A stretch of DNA of 64,000 bases from Porphyromonas gingivalis ATCC 33277 (GTDB taxonomy: Bacteria > Bacteroidota > Bacteroidia > Bacteroidales > Porphyromonadaceae). Location: contig NC_010729.1 of NCBI RefSeq assembly GCF_000010505.1, positions 1,805,501 to 1,869,500 on the forward strand. The letters are read 5' to 3'. Made by a program: the position numbers and the translations under genes. The notes beneath the pieces were generated by a model. The model was not told the origin of the DNA. It saw nothing but the letters and a program-made list of their open reading frames with translations, and made no database searches. Of the stretch, positions 7,186-52,312 are shown one piece after another; position 1 is the first letter of the stretch, and the number at the start of each line of letters is the position of its first letter.

Positions 7186-7316
7186 CGATTTATATATAAA
7201 GCTTTTTCGATTTGTATATATATCGTTTTCATTTTGTATATAAATCATTTTTAATTTATATATAAATCGATTGGGATAAATATATAGATTGTAAGCCCGA
7301 TTTGATATAAATCGGG
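7186..7316. repeat. AT-rich tandem repeat, ~22-bp period
   Basis: About six degenerate units centred on TATATATAAA- or TTTGTATATA-type cores, with neighbouring cores 21-24 bp apart (near 7192, 7214, 7235, 7258, 7280 and 7304), often bracketed by CGATT or AATCG. The block has no coding potential. A shorter similar stretch (CGATTTGTATATAA) occurs at 51657-51670. Confidence 0.6.
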
Positions 7317-7718: not shown

Positions 7719-8018
7719 GTTGTGTGTACCCTTCGAATAGAGGGTAGATCCAACCGTTACTTCGATGAAGACTACAACGAAACAGTTGTGTGTACCCTTC
7801 GAATAGAGGGTAGATCCAACTAATAAGGTAAAATATAGTAATCCTTTGCCGTTGTGTGTACCCTTCGAATAGAGGGTAGATCCAACGTAAAGAAGAAAAA
7901 AGATTAATTCCACTTGGTTGTGTGTACCCTTCGAATAGAGGGTAGATCCAACCTACTCGTGCTACACGAGTTAGTAAATGGAGTTGTGTGTACCCTTCGA
8001 ATAGAGGGTAGATCCAAC
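7719..8018 (-). CRISPR. Type VI-B CRISPR array, 5 repeats, 4 spacers
   Basis: Five identical 36-bp repeats at 7719-7754, 7785-7820, 7851-7886, 7917-7952 and 7983-8018 are separated by four spacers of exactly 30 bp. On the minus strand the repeat begins GTTGGATCTACC and ends GGTACACACAAC, the form of direct repeat known for Porphyromonas Cas13b, whose crRNAs carry the repeat at the 3' end. The array lies downstream of cas13b-csx28 and on the same strand. No degenerate terminal repeat is seen. Each spacer read on the plus strand (the RNA sense that a crRNA would pair with) has an open frame; the first encodes RYFDEDYNET. Confidence 0.97.
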
Positions 8019-8227
8019 CTACCCCCATCGAATTTGAAACCGATTGAGAAGTCATCATTCCACAGAAAGTGAGTGACGGTAAGGCTTTGGAGCCACTGCA
8101 AGCCGGCGAAAAACAGTCTGTCATCATCATTTTAGTGGGATATTAGGATTGAAAAAATGACTCTCTACGGTCGGGTTTATGCTATTTTCTCTCAAAAAAT
8201 CATTCCTATGCTCCTGGCGGTTCGCAC
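8019..8227 (-). promoter_or_regulatory. Presumed CRISPR leader
   Basis: These 209 bp between the csx28 stop and the first-transcribed repeat should hold the pre-crRNA promoter, unless the array is cotranscribed with cas13b-csx28. The first bases (8019-8032, CTACCCCCATCGAA) are imperfectly complementary to the adjacent repeat and could fold onto it. No clear TAnnTTTG box was found on the minus strand. The leader assignment rests on position only. Confidence 0.45.
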
Positions 8228-8777: not shown

Positions 8778-11700
8778 TTATGCTTGTATGATTCGTTCTG
8801 CCATTTCTTTTGCCTGCTTCACTTCCTCGCTCAACCGGTGCGCGATGTTCAGCCCCATCCTTTCCTCTATGGCATCGGGGGAAGAGGGGTCGTACTTCCG
8901 AATAGACGAAAAGACGGCCTCGTCGTACATGGGATACTGATTGTGCGAGAAGGCATTGCGCACAGCGATCAGAAGCCGGACATTCCCGTGCAGATCCGGC
9001 CACTTGTCCAAGAGAGGATCCGACCAGCTTTCGAGCATCTTTCTGAAGTTCTTATCCGGCAAGTGAGGATATCGGGTCAGCAGGCTCTCTTCCAGCTCCA
9101 GCGTCTGCTCGAAGGCACAGACCCTTGCCGTCTGATACTTGGCCAGCTCGTACTCCACCCTGAGCTTGCTGATCGGGTACTGCTCCATCGCGAGTGCGCC
9201 GGTATCGACGAAAGAGAAAAGGCCGTTGAGCCGGCGATCCTTGACGAAGGATTTGAAATTGCCCTGCTTCAGCAGCTTGGTGTCCCTTTCTTCGATATAG
9301 ACCGTCGCCAGAGGAGCCTGCTCCTTGTGTACATGGCCTCGGCTGTCGGCTCTGTACACGACCACGGGCAAGCGCATCGGCTTCACGCGGTTCAGTACAT
9401 TGAGGTTTCCCTGCTCTTGGACGTCGGTCCGAATATCTTTCAGGTAGAGAGTACCGGTATCCAATCCCTCCACCTTGTTCTCTTCCATGAGATCCCTGCA
9501 TATCATCCAAGTGATAATATCCTGATTCTTGACAAGGCGCAGTTCGCGCTCGAACTTCTGCCACGACTTGAAGTCGAGATAGGGGTGTTCTTTGGCTTCG
9601 AGTATTTCCTTTTTCAGTTTGGCGAGTCGGAACCGCTCCTTACCGCTCTCCCACTCTTCGGCACGCTTTTCTTTGCTCAGGAAGCGTCCTTTCTTGGGCT
9701 TGAGGCTGTTGCCTACATTGAAGGGGTAGTCATAGAAAGGCTGTACCCGATCTTTACAAGCCCGCTCGAAATACAGCGGAACGGCTTTGGCCATGAATCC
9801 GACTTCCTTGTATGACCCGACTTCATCGAGCCCCATCTCTATCAGGCAGTCTCTGACCGCTTCGGTAAAAATCCCGCGTGGCAGATGAAATTCGCCCTTC
9901 CAGCCTGCCACTAATGTCTGCCGATCGGTTTTGGGTTCCTTGAGCAGGAGGAAGCGGTGGTTCTCCACCCGATCGCTTCGTCCTATGCTTTGGAGAAAAG
10001 CCTTTCTTGCTTTCAGATAGCTGCGATAGAAGGACAGGATATTGGTATGGCTCTCCCACCGGGTCTCGTGCAGGAAAGGATGGGGATTGTTCCCTCCCGT
10101 CAGATTCATCTGGCGGAAATACGGTGTCAGACGCTCTTTCTCTCCACCGAAAAGGGCGAGGGCGCGCTGTAGCATCCGGTATTCGGTGCTGTTGGCCTTG
10201 CTATTGTTCAGAGGCTTGCCGCTCGTGTCTTTCGCCACGGGCTGAAAGCGCATCATATCCCGTACCAGCCAGTCGGCTATGACGCCCGACTTGGGCAGGC
10301 CGGCATTCTTTCTGCCGATCCTGATCTTTCGGTCGGTCTGCCGATCCAGCATATCCAGACGGTGATCCGTATCCACTATCATTTCCTGAAGTTTCTTGCG
10401 GACTTTCTCCTCCATATCCTTATGCTCTTGGGACAATATGCCGATCATTTGCCTGGGGAGATGTCCTCGCCGAATACCCTTGTCCGCCAAACAGGCATCC
10501 AACTCGTCGCGCGTATTGATTTCGCCTCGGGCGAAAGCATCGTAGACAGCGTACACATCCTCTATCACCCTCTTGATTCTTCCTTGCACCCTCTCGGCAC
10601 TTGCCTCATCGGAATACTTTTCTCTCAGCAGGAAGTAGTAGAACATCATGGGCATCAGCTCATGTACGCTCAGGAAGGCTTCTGCCGTGAGCCGTTTGTC
10701 TTGGGCGTATTTGCTTCGCCCCGTTCGGGTTGCTCCTACCTCCGGCGACGGCCAAAGATGCTGTCCTTCCGGCACGAACCTCAGCCCGATCTTTCCTTTC
10801 TCGATATGATAGTGCGGAGTGGTTTGGGTGATATAGGGCTTGTCGCCGGTCTCGAAGTAGTCCAAATCCCGCACCAAACGCTTCCATTCTTCGGGTCTAT
10901 GCTCCTCGGCGAAATCCTGTATTCGGCCGAAGCCGTACAGGTTGCGCGTCAGATGGCGGTCTTCCGGCTGCTCGCCGATGTTCTTCTTGTATATGGCGAA
11001 GTGGTAGGTGCCCAAATCTATATGGAAGCGGAGGGAAGTGAAGACTTTCTTCAGATCGAAGTATCGCAAGGCGAAGTAGGGGAAGCGATCCTGATGCCTG
11101 ACCAGCGTGTTTTTGAAGGGGTCTTCTTCCGTACCGTCCGTATCGTCCTCATCGGACAGAATATCGACGGGTACTCGGAAACGCGCTCTATCCTCTTCGC
11201 GAAGACGATCGTACAACGACTTGGGACAGCGAACCAGTTCGTTCAGCATATCGAGCAGCATCCAGTCGTCCGTGCGCAGGCTCTCCAGTTTGAGCTTCGG
11301 CAAGGAGATCCGGCTCCGGCAGAAGACCTCGTTGGTCATCTGCTGGTAGGTTTCGGTGCCGCCCTTGAAGCCTCGGATCTTCTTTTGCATCCAGATGGCA
11401 TCCCTTTTCTCAAGAAAGAGGGAGACGAAAAACAGCAGTCCGGCTTCCGTGACTTTCTCCTCTCTATCGACAAAATGGTGCTTGAAGAAGGGATTGTCGT
11501 TATTGCCGTACCTATCCTTCTTGCCTTTCCTGACAAGGTGGTTGAAGTGGCGGTGGGGATCGACCTTGTCGTTGTGCTCGTGATCTCTTTTCACCCGTTG
11601 CACACTCACATCGAAGACGTTGTACAGTCTCTGAAGCATGTTTCCATCAAACAAGGGCAATTCCGAAGATTCGGGATGTCGATAGTGGGAGTAGTAATTC

Positions 11701-12137
11701 CTGAAATCCTTGAGCTTTTGCAGAAAGTCGAACAGGATGCTCTTCAGATTGTCCAAGGAGAGTGCATTGGCTTGCAGTTCCTCCTTTTCTTTTTTCGTGA
11801 GTTCTTTCTTCTTGGAGGATTTGTTTCCGGAAGATTGGCTTTCGAAGAGTTTCTTTCCGTATGCGGCTCCTTCCAAAAAGGAGAAATGCTTCAGGATCAA
11901 ACTTCTCAGCCGAGCTTTCCTCTCCAGATCGTTGTCGAGGTTTTTCCATTGGCCCTTGAAGAAGAGTATATCCTCATCGTTGGTTATATCGGCCTTGCTG
12001 TAGGCGAGCTGCCTGTCGATGTGGGCGAGGGTAATATAGGCGTTGTGACGTGCCAGATTGAAGAAAGCTGCCCAGAAATGTTTGTCCTCCAGCGTGTAGT
12101 AGGTACCGTTGTACGGTCTCTCGTTTTGTTCTGTCAT
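8778..12137 (-). CDS. cas13b: CRISPR-associated RNA-guided RNase Cas13b
   Basis: Cas13b processes its own pre-crRNA and, on binding matching RNA, cleaves target and bystander RNA with two HEPN domains. The protein has 1119 residues, the expected size. Both catalytic motifs are intact at the protein ends, as usual for Cas13b: RNYYSH (R146, H151) and RNAFSH (R1060, H1065). A Lys-rich stretch (about 105-120) lies in HEPN1. The order cas13b-csx28-array with no cas1/cas2 fits subtype VI-B2. The start ATG is supported by the MTEQNERPYNGTYYTLEDKHF start typical of the family. A weak promoter-like TAACTTTA lies on the minus strand at 12223-12230. No frameshift is visible, so the system looks functional. 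Confidence 0.97.
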   Translation of the reverse strand: MTEQNERPYNGTYYTLEDKHFWAAFFNLARHNAYITLAHIDRQLAYSKADITNDEDILFFKGQWKNLDNDLERKARLRSLILKHFSFLEGAAYGKKLFESQSSGNKSSKKKELTKKEKEELQANALSLDNLKSILFDFLQKLKDFRNYYSHYRHPESSELPLFDGNMLQRLYNVFDVSVQRVKRDHEHNDKVDPHRHFNHLVRKGKKDRYGNNDNPFFKHHFVDREEKVTEAGLLFFVSLFLEKRDAIWMQKKIRGFKGGTETYQQMTNEVFCRSRISLPKLKLESLRTDDWMLLDMLNELVRCPKSLYDRLREEDRARFRVPVDILSDEDDTDGTEEDPFKNTLVRHQDRFPYFALRYFDLKKVFTSLRFHIDLGTYHFAIYKKNIGEQPEDRHLTRNLYGFGRIQDFAEEHRPEEWKRLVRDLDYFETGDKPYITQTTPHYHIEKGKIGLRFVPEGQHLWPSPEVGATRTGRSKYAQDKRLTAEAFLSVHELMPMMFYYFLLREKYSDEASAERVQGRIKRVIEDVYAVYDAFARGEINTRDELDACLADKGIRRGHLPRQMIGILSQEHKDMEEKVRKKLQEMIVDTDHRLDMLDRQTDRKIRIGRKNAGLPKSGVIADWLVRDMMRFQPVAKDTSGKPLNNSKANSTEYRMLQRALALFGGEKERLTPYFRQMNLTGGNNPHPFLHETRWESHTNILSFYRSYLKARKAFLQSIGRSDRVENHRFLLLKEPKTDRQTLVAGWKGEFHLPRGIFTEAVRDCLIEMGLDEVGSYKEVGFMAKAVPLYFERACKDRVQPFYDYPFNVGNSLKPKKGRFLSKEKRAEEWESGKERFRLAKLKKEILEAKEHPYLDFKSWQKFERELRLVKNQDIITWMICRDLMEENKVEGLDTGTLYLKDIRTDVQEQGNLNVLNRVKPMRLPVVVYRADSRGHVHKEQAPLATVYIEERDTKLLKQGNFKSFVKDRRLNGLFSFVDTGALAMEQYPISKLRVEYELAKYQTARVCAFEQTLELEESLLTRYPHLPDKNFRKMLESWSDPLLDKWPDLHGNVRLLIAVRNAFSHNQYPMYDEAVFSSIRKYDPSSPDAIEERMGLNIAHRLSEEVKQAKEMAERIIQA

Positions 12138-17703: not shown

Positions 17704-19680
17704 TCAGTTGCTCATCGAGGCGAGGAACTCCATATTGGTATGCGTATTCTCCAGCTGCTTACGCACAAACTCCATGGCTTCGACAGGATTCATGTCGGAG
17801 AGGTACTTGCGCAGGATCCACATACGGTTCAGCGTGGTCTCGTCCTGCAGCAAGTCGTCGCGACGGGTACTGCTGGACATGATGTCCACGGCGGGGAATA
17901 TGCGTTTGTTGGACAGGCGGCGATCGAGCTGCAGCTCCATATTGCCCGTACCCTTGAACTCTTCGAATATCACCTCGTCCATCTTAGAACCCGTGTCGGT
18001 CAGCGCCGTGGCCAGAATGGTGAGACTACCGCCGTTTTCGATGTTGCGAGCGGCACCGAAGAAGCGTTTCGGCTTCTGCAGGGCATTGGCATCGACACCA
18101 CCGGAGAGCACCTTGCCCGATGCGGGCTGTACGGTATTGTATGCACGTGCCAGACGGGTGATGGAGTCGAGCAGGATGACTACGTCATGACCGCACTCCA
18201 CCATTCTTTTGGCTTTGTTCAGGACGATCTCGGCGATCTTCACGTGACGCTCTGCCGGCTCGTCGAAGGTGGAAGCGATGACCTCGGCGTTCACGCTTCG
18301 CGCCATGTCGGTGACCTCTTCGGGACGCTCGTCGATGAGCAGGACGATCATGTACACTTCGGGGTGATTGGCTGCGATGGCATTGGCAATGTCCTTGAGG
18401 AGCATCGTCTTACCCGTCTTGGGCTGCGATACGATCAGGCCGCGCTGTCCTTTGCCTATGGGGGCGAAGAGATCTACGACGCGGACGGATATTTTATCGT
18501 TTACGGCACGGATGCCCGGTGCTTCGAGGGTGAACTTCTCCTCGGGGAAGAGGGGTGTGAGATGATCGAAGGGCACGCGGTCGCGGATCTCTTCGGGGCT
18601 GCGACCGTTCACACTCCGCAGCTGCACGAAGGGGAAGTACTTCTCCCCCTCTCTGGGCGGACGGATAGTACCTGCCACGACGTCGCCGGTCTTGAGTCCG
18701 TTGTGCTTGATCTGCTGCTGGGACACGTACACATCGTCCGGAGAGGACAGATAGTTGTAGTCCGAGGAGCGGAGGAATCCGTAGCCGTCGGGCATGATCT
18801 CCAGTACGCCCATGCACTCGAGGATGCCGTCGAAGTTGTAGAGAGGTTGCTGAGGTTCGCGACGGGGAGTCGGCACGCCGGCCGCCTGTCGCTGCCTGAT
18901 CGGGCTGCTGCCGACCGGAGCACCGGCCGGTTTGGGCCTCTGCGGGGGCTGGGGAGAGCTGTACGGCAGCACCTGATCCAATACCGAGGAGCTGTTCTTG
19001 TGCCTGAATACGAGGCGGCGAGCACCGCCCTCATCGACGGCTCCGGCAGCAGGAGTCGTGGTGATGGACTCGATGGCGGGGGGAGGAGCGGGCGTCTCGG
19101 GCTTGGCATCGTCCTTGGCCGGCTCGCTCACGGGCGTCGTGGGAGGGGGAGACGGTGCCACGCGCGGGGTGGTCTCTGCCGGACGGGGAAGGGCTTTGGC
19201 AGGGGCTTTGGCAGGGGATGCTGTGGACGTTTTCGCCGCCGGCTTCCGCCCGGCACTCTCCTTCTCCGTTGCATTTGTCTCCTCTGCAGCAGCCAGAGCC
19301 ACGAGCTGCTGCACATCTTCCCGGGTCTCTTCCGCTATCTCTTCCGCCGCTTTGCGAGGGCGGCCACGCTTGCGTTTGGCCTGAGCTTCCTCGTCGTTCG
19401 GCTCGGCAGGAGCGGCTGCGACGTCTTTGCTTTCGGGAGCTTCCTCCTCGGCGTTTTTGCGCGGACGACCCGGCTTGCGCCTTTCGGTGTGCCGGTCTTC
19501 CGTCGTTTTTTGTTTTTCCTTCCGGACGCCGGCTACACTGATAGCCTGCTCGTCGAGTATTTTGTAAATAAGTTCTTGTTTGGGCATTGAGCCGGCATTG
19601 GCAATACCCAGCTCGCCGGCTATAGCAGCGAGTTCAGCTTCAGCCTTCTCGTTCAAATCGACGATCGTGTACTTCTGCAT
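17704..19680 (-). CDS. rho: Transcription termination factor Rho, with long N-terminal insert
   Basis: Rho is the hexameric RNA helicase that ends transcription. The C-terminal two thirds are typical: an RNA-binding cold-shock-like domain ([21 protein letters not shown]), Walker A in [29 protein letters not shown] and the Q/R-loop region [11 protein letters not shown]. The N-terminus starts with the helical Rho N-domain ([17 protein letters not shown]), then about 240 residues of Lys/Arg/Pro/Ala-rich, probably disordered sequence with two AT-hook-like GRPRK cores. Total length is 658 residues against about 420 in E. coli; long inserts are known in Bacteroidota Rho. ATG at 19680 is chosen because an extension to 19821 lacks family similarity. 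Confidence 0.94.
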
Positions 19681-19821
19681 AATAAATGATGATGAGCTTT
19701 TTAGAAATATGATAAGTGTTGATAGGGGGATACGGCATCTCGGAATGAGACTGTCAGGATACTCGATACCGCAGGACGAAAGGATAGAGAATAGGTGTCT
19801 ATTTCGTTTTCCGTCGTGCAA

Positions 19822-20177
19822 ATGTAAGAAATAAATCGAATGATGGTCTTACTCCCTCCGCCTTATTCGCCAGGGCCGGCTGCGCCTGCGTATGCTACGG
19901 CCCACGGGGGCGATGCGGAGAGTCGATCGCAAAGAGCGGGACGCCGCCCCCCCTTCGTCTCTATAAACGACACGGCAAGAGTATTTATTTTACTGTCTGC
20001 CGAATCGAACTATTTGGGTACCTTTGCCGCGGTTTGCAGACCGCCCCCGCAAGTCGTGGCCGCCCCCTCGGTCAGCCGCGTGCGGGAGGAGCCGACGCAC
20101 CTCACGGGAGGAAGGCGAAGAGCCACCCCCGGGAAACGCCGGGACGTGGCCGTGGCCGTCTGCAATATCCCCTCGAA
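19822..20177. other. GC-rich intergenic region between rho and the HU gene
   Basis: No convincing gene; the open frame across it is Pro/Arg-rich with no domain. A TACCTTTG box at 20019-20026 (plus strand) fits the -7 consensus and lies about 330 bp before the HU gene, which would make a long 5' leader including the palindrome array. Both rho (leftward) and the HU gene (rightward) must be driven from here. Confidence 0.5.
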
Positions 20178-20288
20178 AAAACGTCTAGACGTTTTGCCCG
20201 AAACGTCTAGACCTTTTGCTCGAAACGTCTAGACGTTTTATTCGGAACGTCTAGACGTTTTCCTCCGAACGTCCAGACGTTTTTTTTC
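20178..20288. repeat. Five phased palindromes, 22-bp period
   Basis: AACGTCTAGACGTT-type palindromes begin at 20180, 20202, 20224, 20246 and 20268, each exactly 22 bp after the last. Copies 1, 3 and 4 are perfect 14-bp palindromes. Copy 2 has GACC instead of GACG, and copy 5 has GTCCAG instead of GTCTAG. The intervening 8 bases vary. The array ends about 70 bp before the HU-family ATG. Confidence 0.92.
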
Positions 20289-40361: not shown

Positions 40362-40405
40362 AAAAGCTCCTAATCTTTTGATGAAAAGCTCTTAAGCTTT
40401 TGATC
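40362..40405. repeat. Two 22-bp direct repeats
   Basis: AAAAGCTCCTAATCTTTTGATG (40362-40383; given in full it would be 22 bases) is followed directly by a copy starting AAAAGCTCTTAAGCTTTTG (40384-40405). The second unit contains the palindrome AAAAGCTTAAGAGCTTTT-like core (AAAAGCTCTTAAGCTTTT). The rest of 40406-40615 shows nothing clear. Confidence 0.65.
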
Positions 40406-51739: not shown

Positions 51740-52312
51740 ATTTCTTACTGCAGGCTTGCAATAAGAAATTTTGTTTGCGAGATTCTATGCTGCAGGCTTG
51801 CAGTAAGGAATTTTGCATACAAAATTCTTAGCCGCAGGCTTGCGGCGAGTAAGTTTGCCAACAAAATCGCTATTTTTCGCTTGCAACGAGTGATTTTTTA
51901 TGCAAAATCGCCATTTCACGCCTGCAAAAAGCAATTTTGTTTGCAAGATTGTACATTGCAGATAGGATTCTATGAATTTTGTTCGCGAGATTCTATGCTG
52001 CAGGCTTGCAGCAAGTGATTTTGCATACAAAATTCTTAGCCGCAGGCTTGCGGCGAGTAAGTTTGCCAACAAAATCGCTATTTTCCGCTTGCGACGAGTG
52101 ATTTTTTATGCAAAATCGCCATTTCACGCCTGCAAAAAGCAATTTTGTTCGCAAGATTGTACATTGCAGATAGGATTCTATGAATTTTGTTCGCGAGATT
52201 CTATGCTGCAGGCTTGCAGCAAGTGATTTTGCATACAAAATTCTTAGCCGCAGGCTTGCGGTAAGGAATTTCTCTCGCAAGATTGTCATTACACGCTTGC
52301 AGCGAGGAATCT
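51740..52312 (+). repeat. 41-42-bp tandem array of paired hairpins with 208-bp higher-order repeat
   Basis: CTTGC-type cores occur at 51755, 51797, 51839, 51880, 51921, (one degenerate), 52005, 52047, 52088, 52129, (one degenerate), 52213, 52255 and 52296, that is every 41-42 bp over about 14 units. Units repeat as a set of five every 208 bp. Many units can form two stems: CTGCA/TGCAG or CCGCA/TGCGG around GGCT, and an A/T-rich stem such as GAATTTTG-CATA-CAAAATTC. Neither strand has a sustained gene; 42 bp keeps frames open and so produces spurious repetitive peptides. Confidence 0.9.

Follow-up and report, generated by a model that had tools for sequence, protein, structure and literature searches.

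Upstream of a gene for an HU-like protein in Porphyromonas gingivalis ATCC 33277 lies a row of palindromes, which raises the question of what reads this row and what it does for the gene that follows. We studied the locus in a window of 64,000 nucleotides (bases 1805501–1869500 of the single-contig genome of 2,354,886 bp), where the array is situated between rho and the HU_rel/HU-HIG gene (Table 1). A preliminary description had reported five palindromes phased 22 bp apart upstream of an HU gene, and this was confirmed. The palindrome AACGTCTAGACGTT occurs five times at a step of exactly 22 bp, each unit consisting of the 14-bp palindrome and an 8-bp linker; copies 1, 3 and 4 are exact and copies 2 and 5 carry one mismatch each. 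With up to three mismatches allowed, AACGTCTAGACGTT has 8 matches in the window compared to a shuffle mean of 2.21, and 0 of 100 shuffles reached 8. Tandem Repeats Finder calls the same array (20179–20283, period 22, 4.8 copies). At up to one mismatch, the genome search for such arrays and their neighbours that had been suggested at the outset returned one other site, namely two exact copies 22 bp apart flanked by secG and an agmatine-deiminase-like gene. Two other identities were rejected for the window array: a CRISPR array, for which the 14-bp unit and the 8-bp linkers are too short, and a phage or plasmid origin, given no exact two-unit match in viral contigs and no blastn match in phages or plasmids.

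Table 1. Features of the rho/HU-HIG locus and of related array families (positions are those of the window; HU genes are named by their genome position)
Feature	Position	Strand	Basis or remark
rho, divergent neighbour	17704–19680	−	TIGR00767
TACATTTG, candidate −7 box of rho	19819–19826	−	match to consensus
TACCTTTG, candidate −7 box of the HU-HIG promoter	20019–20026	+	match to consensus; array downstream of box
Array of five 14-bp palindromes, period 22	20178–20288		proposed operator array
Palindromes of this array (AACGTCTAGACGTT)	20180–20193, 20202–20215, 20224–20237, 20246–20259, 20268–20281	+
HU_rel/HU-HIG gene, 172 aa	20357–20875	+	TIGR01201, PF18291, HU-core model; proposed both as binder and as the gene regulated
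22-bp array of ATTTATATATAAAT type	7188–7297		family shared with the array of HU 1566625; no HU gene closer than 3 kb
Non-HU array family GAGCTACGC..GTAG			matches array of HU 855384
Non-HU array family GAGAGGATACTATGGTCTCAT, 23-bp			matches array of HU 961562
Non-HU array family AAACTATATAGTTT			matches array of HU 1574611
Non-HU array family ATTTATATATAAAT			matches array of HU 1566625
Non-HU array family CTTTATAGTATAAAG			matches array of HU 356029

The conservation of the array was assessed with one genome per species, 26 genomes of the genus being compared. Among these, AACGTCTAGACGTT arrays occur only in this genome and in P. gulae DSM 15663 (G007), and two other genomes hold an isolated single match with one mismatch each. 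The absence upstream of the HU gene in close relatives, named at the outset as a possible objection, is not seen in P. gulae, where the rho/HU and the secG site hold five copies each. Between the two species, the rho/HU array is identical at 110 of 111 positions (palindromes 69/70, linkers 32/32), and identity amounts to 361/498 (72%) in the rho-side intergenic DNA, 62/68 in the interval from the array to the HU start and 481/519 in the HU gene. The linkers, first described as variable, do differ among units, but they are fixed between the species. In G008, a more distant species with an HU orthologue at 77% identity, four 22-bp repeats occupy the corresponding position. Their outer segments, CGAAAC and GTTTCG, have largely been retained, and their core is different and not clearly palindromic (p 0.28). 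The secG-side array has 2 units in P. gingivalis (L001 1501–1536) and 5 in P. gulae (L012 5748–5850), with linkers partly inverted in P. gulae, whereas the HU-linked array has 5 units in both species.

The adjacent protein belongs to TIGR01201 (HU_rel; 190.3 bits with a cut-off of 68.6, residues 1–172) and to PF18291 (HU-HIG; 97.2 bits with a cut-off of 26.2). Its structure was modelled (mean pLDDT 81.4, pTM 0.59) from an alignment of 66 of the 96 HU-type genes collected, and all 66 proteins match PF18291 (E 0.001). In the model, a beta hairpin at the N-terminus is joined to an HU core, in which most residues score above 90, and to a tail of low confidence (disordered). Foldseek returned 4fmr, a putative Bacteroides DNA-binding protein, as the top PDB match (E 6.4e-5), followed by HU and IHF chains; in the viral library, phage HU-domain proteins match the model as well, and a PDB search with the protein sequence gave three weak HU matches. 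As modelled, the protein has the fold of the HU/IHF superfamily. Canonical HU/IHF proteins are about 90 aa long and have a long beta-arm with an RNPxTG-type tip; this identity was rejected for a protein of 172 aa with an N-terminal hairpin and a disordered tail, and RNPxTG, read by eye, is absent from it and from the consensus of the 66 proteins. PADLOC gave no match for the three HU proteins tried, and hence no defence-system assignment. The HU-HIG clade of the superfamily, the same protein family (PF18291), was reportedly described by Burroughs and colleagues in 2017, who are said to predict recognition of mobile DNA from protein sequences and are not known to describe DNA target arrays. Because solved HU–DNA complexes contain about 20 bp per HU dimer, a 22-bp repeat would suit such a dimer, and the titles of the structure-search matches include entries with 19–20-bp DNA.

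To place the locus among its relatives, we collected 96 distinct HU-type genes with a custom profile: 74 long ones from the 26 genus genomes, 20 picked from five genomes of other Bacteroidales families and 2 canonical ones, the 74 and the 20 being part of a larger number of HU-HIG genes. An array was called when, within 600 bp upstream, the self-match over 44 bp reached at least 28/44 at 20–23 bp, a threshold chosen after viewing the data; simple ORF calling supplied the gene starts and the control genes, genomes were sampled in parts and related HU genes are not independent. Arrays were found upstream of 46/74 genus HU-HIG genes, 6/20 of those from other Bacteroidales and 0/2 canonical HU genes, compared to 63/924 other genes in the genus, 0/265 in seven other Bacteroidales samples and 1/79 in E. 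coli. Control genes with an upstream gap of at least 300 bp had arrays in 37/173, 0/30 and 0/8 cases, respectively, and the excess of HU-HIG genes over gap-matched controls was significant in the genus (p 1e-9, with a control set that includes HU-gene neighbours sharing the same array) and in the order (p 0.002). When proteins were clustered at 80% identity, 33/56 genus clusters and 6/16 others had an array. The 46 array-bearing genes are spread over 16 of the 26 genus genomes; in the other 10, with one gene examined in each, no array was found before the HU-HIG gene. The best spacing (score at least 28, spacings of 12–35 tried) was 22 in 39 of 53 HU-HIG regions and 23 in 10, and the remaining four gave 18, 20, 21 and 24, once each.

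This genome has 17 PF18291 matches, two of which are short canonical HU genes. Its distinct long HU genes number 14 with one identical duplicate left out, and an array within 600 bp is present at 10 of them. As for the others, HU 1131314 is without an array, HU 2223422 has only a weak 20-bp one, and at HU 502049 and HU 1324692 array and gene are separated by a transposase gene of IS982 or IS5 type. In P. gulae, 9 of 10 long HU-HIG genes have an array. At genome position ~1586900 (L136 1886–2341), an HU-HIG gene has an in-frame TAA after about 95 residues, with a 22-bp array still upstream.

The geometry of such arrays was then followed in 464 kb of this genome, comprising the window and 20 spread stretches of 20 kb. 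A strict scan took 14-mers in which 6 or more of the 7 dyad pairs matched and which recurred, with no fewer than 12 of 14 positions identical, at spacings of 15–59. It found sites at 22 (8), 23 (5), 44 (7), 46 (4), 42 (3) and 50 bp (1) and none elsewhere, i.e., at 22/23 bp and multiples save four sites; the three 42-bp sites all lie in one repeat region of the window. A looser scan over spacings of 12–59 gave 22 in 12 sites, 23 in 9, 44 in 12, 45 in 5 and 46 in 7, and otherwise 41 in 6, 42 in 4, 50 in 3 and one each of 24, 28, 39 and 53, compared to 1.2 sites altogether per block-shuffled control sequence. The 41–42 spacing class fits the 41-nt PgRS repeats named in the accessible part of PMC4596501. 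At 51748–52261 of the window, nested 41/42-bp and 208-bp repeats are probably a PgRS/MITE464-type element as described in that part of PMC4596501.

All six Porphyromonas genomes sampled contain arrays of this class. In the other five, 22-bp sites numbered 5 in 266 kb (P. gulae), 8 in 200 kb (G008), 2 in 140 kb (G011), 7 in 100 kb (G001) and 6 in 100 kb (G016), and the remaining single spacings had 0 to 2 sites, the multiple 44 excepted. An effect of base composition was rejected, as the 22/23 peak appears in six genomes spanning 43 to 61% G+C. Each array family of this genome has its own palindrome. The window array, initially seen as a single special case, is one member of a class in which period and layout are constant and the sequence is variable. 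Between sister species, the linkers are conserved along with the palindromes. In G001 (L095–L099), dense 22-bp arrays of CCACGTGG palindromes occur together with 21-bp repeats.

HU-linked arrays have a median of 4 units, and two thirds of them show dyad symmetry: 34 of 51 are palindromic at p 0.05 by column permutation and 17 are not. Of 21 period-22 arrays, 20 have their dyad centre between two bases; it coincides with a base in 4 of 7 period-23 arrays and in the one period-21 array, as if linker length were constant and the site were one base longer or shorter.

The motif TAnnTTTG is the −7 box of Bacteroidetes promoters. It was found between the array end and the start codon in 21 of 52 arrays, compared to 2.4 expected from shuffles of the same intervals, with boxes downstream of arrays at about −47 to −151. 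In other HU-HIG genes with a recognisable −7 box, the array lies mostly upstream of or against the box. Unlike most of these genes, the HU-HIG gene of the window has its candidate −7 box upstream of the array; P. gulae retains this box, and in G008 a box occurs at about the same distance (−318).

Across HU-linked arrays, motif similarity grows with protein identity (Mantel r 0.26, p 0.0003), also without P. gingivalis–P. gulae pairs and pairs of at least 90% identity (r 0.18, p 0.0007) and when additionally limited to pairs from different genomes (r 0.18, p 0.001). The effect is weak: a similarity above 4 was reached by 70% of 10 pairs at 90% identity or more, 20% of 20 pairs at 70–90%, 5% of 91 pairs at 50–70% and 1–2% below. 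Some distant orthologues keep the palindrome, as G010 and G016 with AACGTATACGTT (85% identity) and G000 compared to G011 (71%) and to G017 (79%). The paralogues 356029 and 502049 are identical at 130 of 143 aligned residues and have different arrays; the one at 502049, on the far side of the IS, is similar to the array found at the P. gulae orthologue.

Arrays also occur away from HU genes: a search for HU remnants within 3 kb of the 35 array rows in the 464 kb gave an HU match for 9 rows and none for 26. In this genome, 27 sampled arrays lie more than 700 bp from an HU gene, and for 22 of them the match to a same-genome HU-linked array exceeds that obtained in 95% or more of the equally large draws from other genomes, these 22 rows being not independent but few families with many members (Table 1). 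Four of the 22 are marginal, namely the arrays at genome 363846 and 1210658 and two ACTAGT arrays (1323142 and 1682683), which belong together by palindrome and one of which lies upstream of HU 1324692 beyond the IS. Five match no HU-linked array of this genome (240644, 493810, 611172, 841097 and 1909410). Elsewhere, same-genome matching was found in 5/6 arrays in P. gulae, 2/6 in G011, 1/10 in G016, 0/4 in G008 and 0/10 in G001, where no HU-linked array was found. Genome-wide, with both strands counted, a search allowing one mismatch found 219 clustered matches to the 23-bp unit (reversed control 5), and the AT palindrome has 97 (reversed control 0). The locus of the array at genome 249021 has no P. 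gulae counterpart by DNA search.

One dispersed repeat of this species has been published. BrickBuilt is a MITE of P. gingivalis with 19 elements containing 23-nt repeats (Klein et al. 2015, PMC4596501), the shortest of which, BrickBuilt_14 (84 nt), lies beside a PF00216 DNA-binding gene (Table 1 of PMC4596501); the same source mentions an earlier report of 22-nt tandem repeats in strain W83 that lacked exact locations, and short repeats of 3–31 bp were left unannotated in PMC5771137, as far as the accessible parts of both papers go. Directly upstream of the HU-HIG gene at 961562 there is a short 23-bp array, which belongs to the most repeated family and fits BrickBuilt by period, position and copy number. 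From position, period and length, we infer that the BrickBuilt repeats are the array family of HU 961562; the accessible text of PMC4596501 contains neither of two strings of the 23-bp unit nor a link between the repeat and an HU-type binder. The window array is likewise an intergenic tandem array of the same genome (period 22 versus 23 in the accessible description of BrickBuilt). It was rejected as a BrickBuilt element, having a 22-bp unit of different sequence, five units and one further genome site. The minisatellite alternative named early on applies in part to the class, as other array families, apparently including BrickBuilt, are dispersed; occurrence as a mobile repeat at many sites holds for these sister families and hardly for AACGTCTAGACGTT with its one other site.

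We consider it reasonably probable (about 0.6) that the window array is an operator row for the dimer of the adjacent HU-HIG (TIGR01201) protein, which would regulate its own gene through dimers bound side by side. A homodimer would occupy each 14–15-bp palindrome, and since 22 bp correspond to about two helical turns, neighbouring dimers would be stacked on one face of the DNA, contact each other and bind cooperatively. The array would set the expression of its own gene, most simply by autorepression, and would serve as a roadblock at the window gene, whose candidate promoter is upstream of it. Paralogues mostly have palindromes of their own, and the dispersed arrays of several of these families would be additional targets. 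This reading draws on the observed association with one gene family, the fixed period, the conservation between species, the position relative to promoters and the matching of array families, along with the dyad symmetry described above. A dimeric cooperative regulator with the HU product as candidate, as put forward in the preliminary description, is the reading favoured in the comparison of genomes by the array before the P. gulae orthologue and by other palindromes before many paralogues.

Autoregulated nucleoid-associated proteins and regulators with phased multi-site operators are known, such as Lrp-type octamers and BldC. Here too, a multi-site array lies near the gene's own promoter and is conserved between species, and putative sites for dimers or protomers are phased on one face upstream of the own gene. 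The protein fold differs, and the HU-HIG arrays have a fixed geometry in which the site sequence varies among paralogues. REP/BIME elements are extragenic palindromes as well, with one palindrome type per genome and a REP-associated transposase. HU-HIG arrays share with them the extragenic and partly dispersed palindromes, but form strict 22/23-bp direct arrays tied to a DNA-binding gene family, and membership in REP/BIME is disfavoured because several unrelated palindromes occur in one genome.

Several observations weaken the operator reading. One third of the HU-linked arrays are not clearly palindromic, and the motifs change fast even between similar proteins (20% similar at 70–90% identity). 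No array was detected before 28/74 genus and 14/20 other HU-HIG genes, and the array-rich G001 has none before its only long HU-HIG gene. It should also be noted that same-genome matching fails in G008 and G001 and mostly in G016 and G011, and that the candidate promoter of the window gene sits upstream of the array.

More tentatively, HU-HIG proteins may be diversified sequence-specific architectural proteins, each reading its own phased array. BrickBuilt-type MITEs would then carry the arrays of one paralogue, each paralogue would silence or cluster its own repeats and chromosomal sites, and specificity and array sequence would turn over together while the 22-bp geometry stays fixed. Paralogue-by-paralogue recognition of repeats by KRAB zinc fingers would be the counterpart. 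HU-family proteins have mainly been described as DNA benders of low specificity; if the idea is true, paralogues with arrays of fixed geometry and changing sequence would be a natural series on how the HU fold gains and changes specificity. It would also provide a candidate binder for the published BrickBuilt repeat and predicted targets for about a dozen uncharacterised HU-like proteins of a periodontal bacterium. For each pair the palindrome, the protein and the candidate targets are known, which makes the idea directly testable. In the titles and the beginnings of abstracts searched, with subscription papers mostly outside, nothing links HU-HIG/TIGR01201 or HU paralogues with repeat arrays, which is weak evidence.

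The arrays might instead be bound by one or more other dimeric factors, with HU-HIG genes as regulated targets and not as binders. We regard this as rather unlikely. It would explain why similar HU-HIG proteins can have different arrays and why G001 has arrays and none before its one long HU-HIG gene; on the other hand, each of many palindromes would need its own factor, and the HU-HIG gene is the sole constant neighbour found when neighbours were looked at unsystematically. Less probable still is a mobile or recombining unit in which HU-HIG gene and array travel together, the array being a recombination or transposition site and regulation secondary. The dispersal of the array families, the two cases in which an IS5 or IS982 transposase gene separates array and gene, and the behaviour of BrickBuilt as a MITE (in the accessible part of PMC4596501) would suit such a unit. 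The rho/HU locus, by contrast, has the same place, the same number of copies and the same linkers in P. gingivalis as in P. gulae, and an unsystematic look beside it noticed neither terminal repeats nor a recombinase.

We give very little credence to tandem hairpins in the leader RNA of the HU gene that would act post-transcriptionally. The window array, downstream of its candidate −7 box, would indeed be transcribed, and hairpin-like terminator matches occur on both strands. However, in the 29 arrays with at least 70% paired positions, G-T does not exceed A-C among the non-Watson–Crick cells of the sense strand (34 versus 41); such a lack of strand bias is what a dyad read as DNA rather than RNA would show. 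The strict period also speaks against hairpins, as do the 21 of 52 arrays with a −7 box downstream, which would not be transcribed from that box, and the search of Rfam, where no family matched at its curated score and the sole match up to E 0.1 was a microRNA model well short of that score (26.7 versus 81). Neutral minisatellites, already disfavoured, are about as improbable: tandem repeats form easily by slippage and the unit number varies at the secG site, but the palindromic period peaks at 22–23 in six genomes from 43 to 61% G+C, one gene family is favoured and the HU-linked array is nearly identical between species (110/111).

Other repeats were seen in the window. A two-unit 22-bp array (40362–40404) lies near rplU (L21), without an HU gene beside it, and resembles, by eye, those found upstream of HU-HIG genes in P. 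gulae (L146) and G008 (L149). A type VI-B Cas13b gene (8778–12137; NF038190, 885.5 bits versus 150) adjoins a CRISPR-like repeat array (7719–8021).
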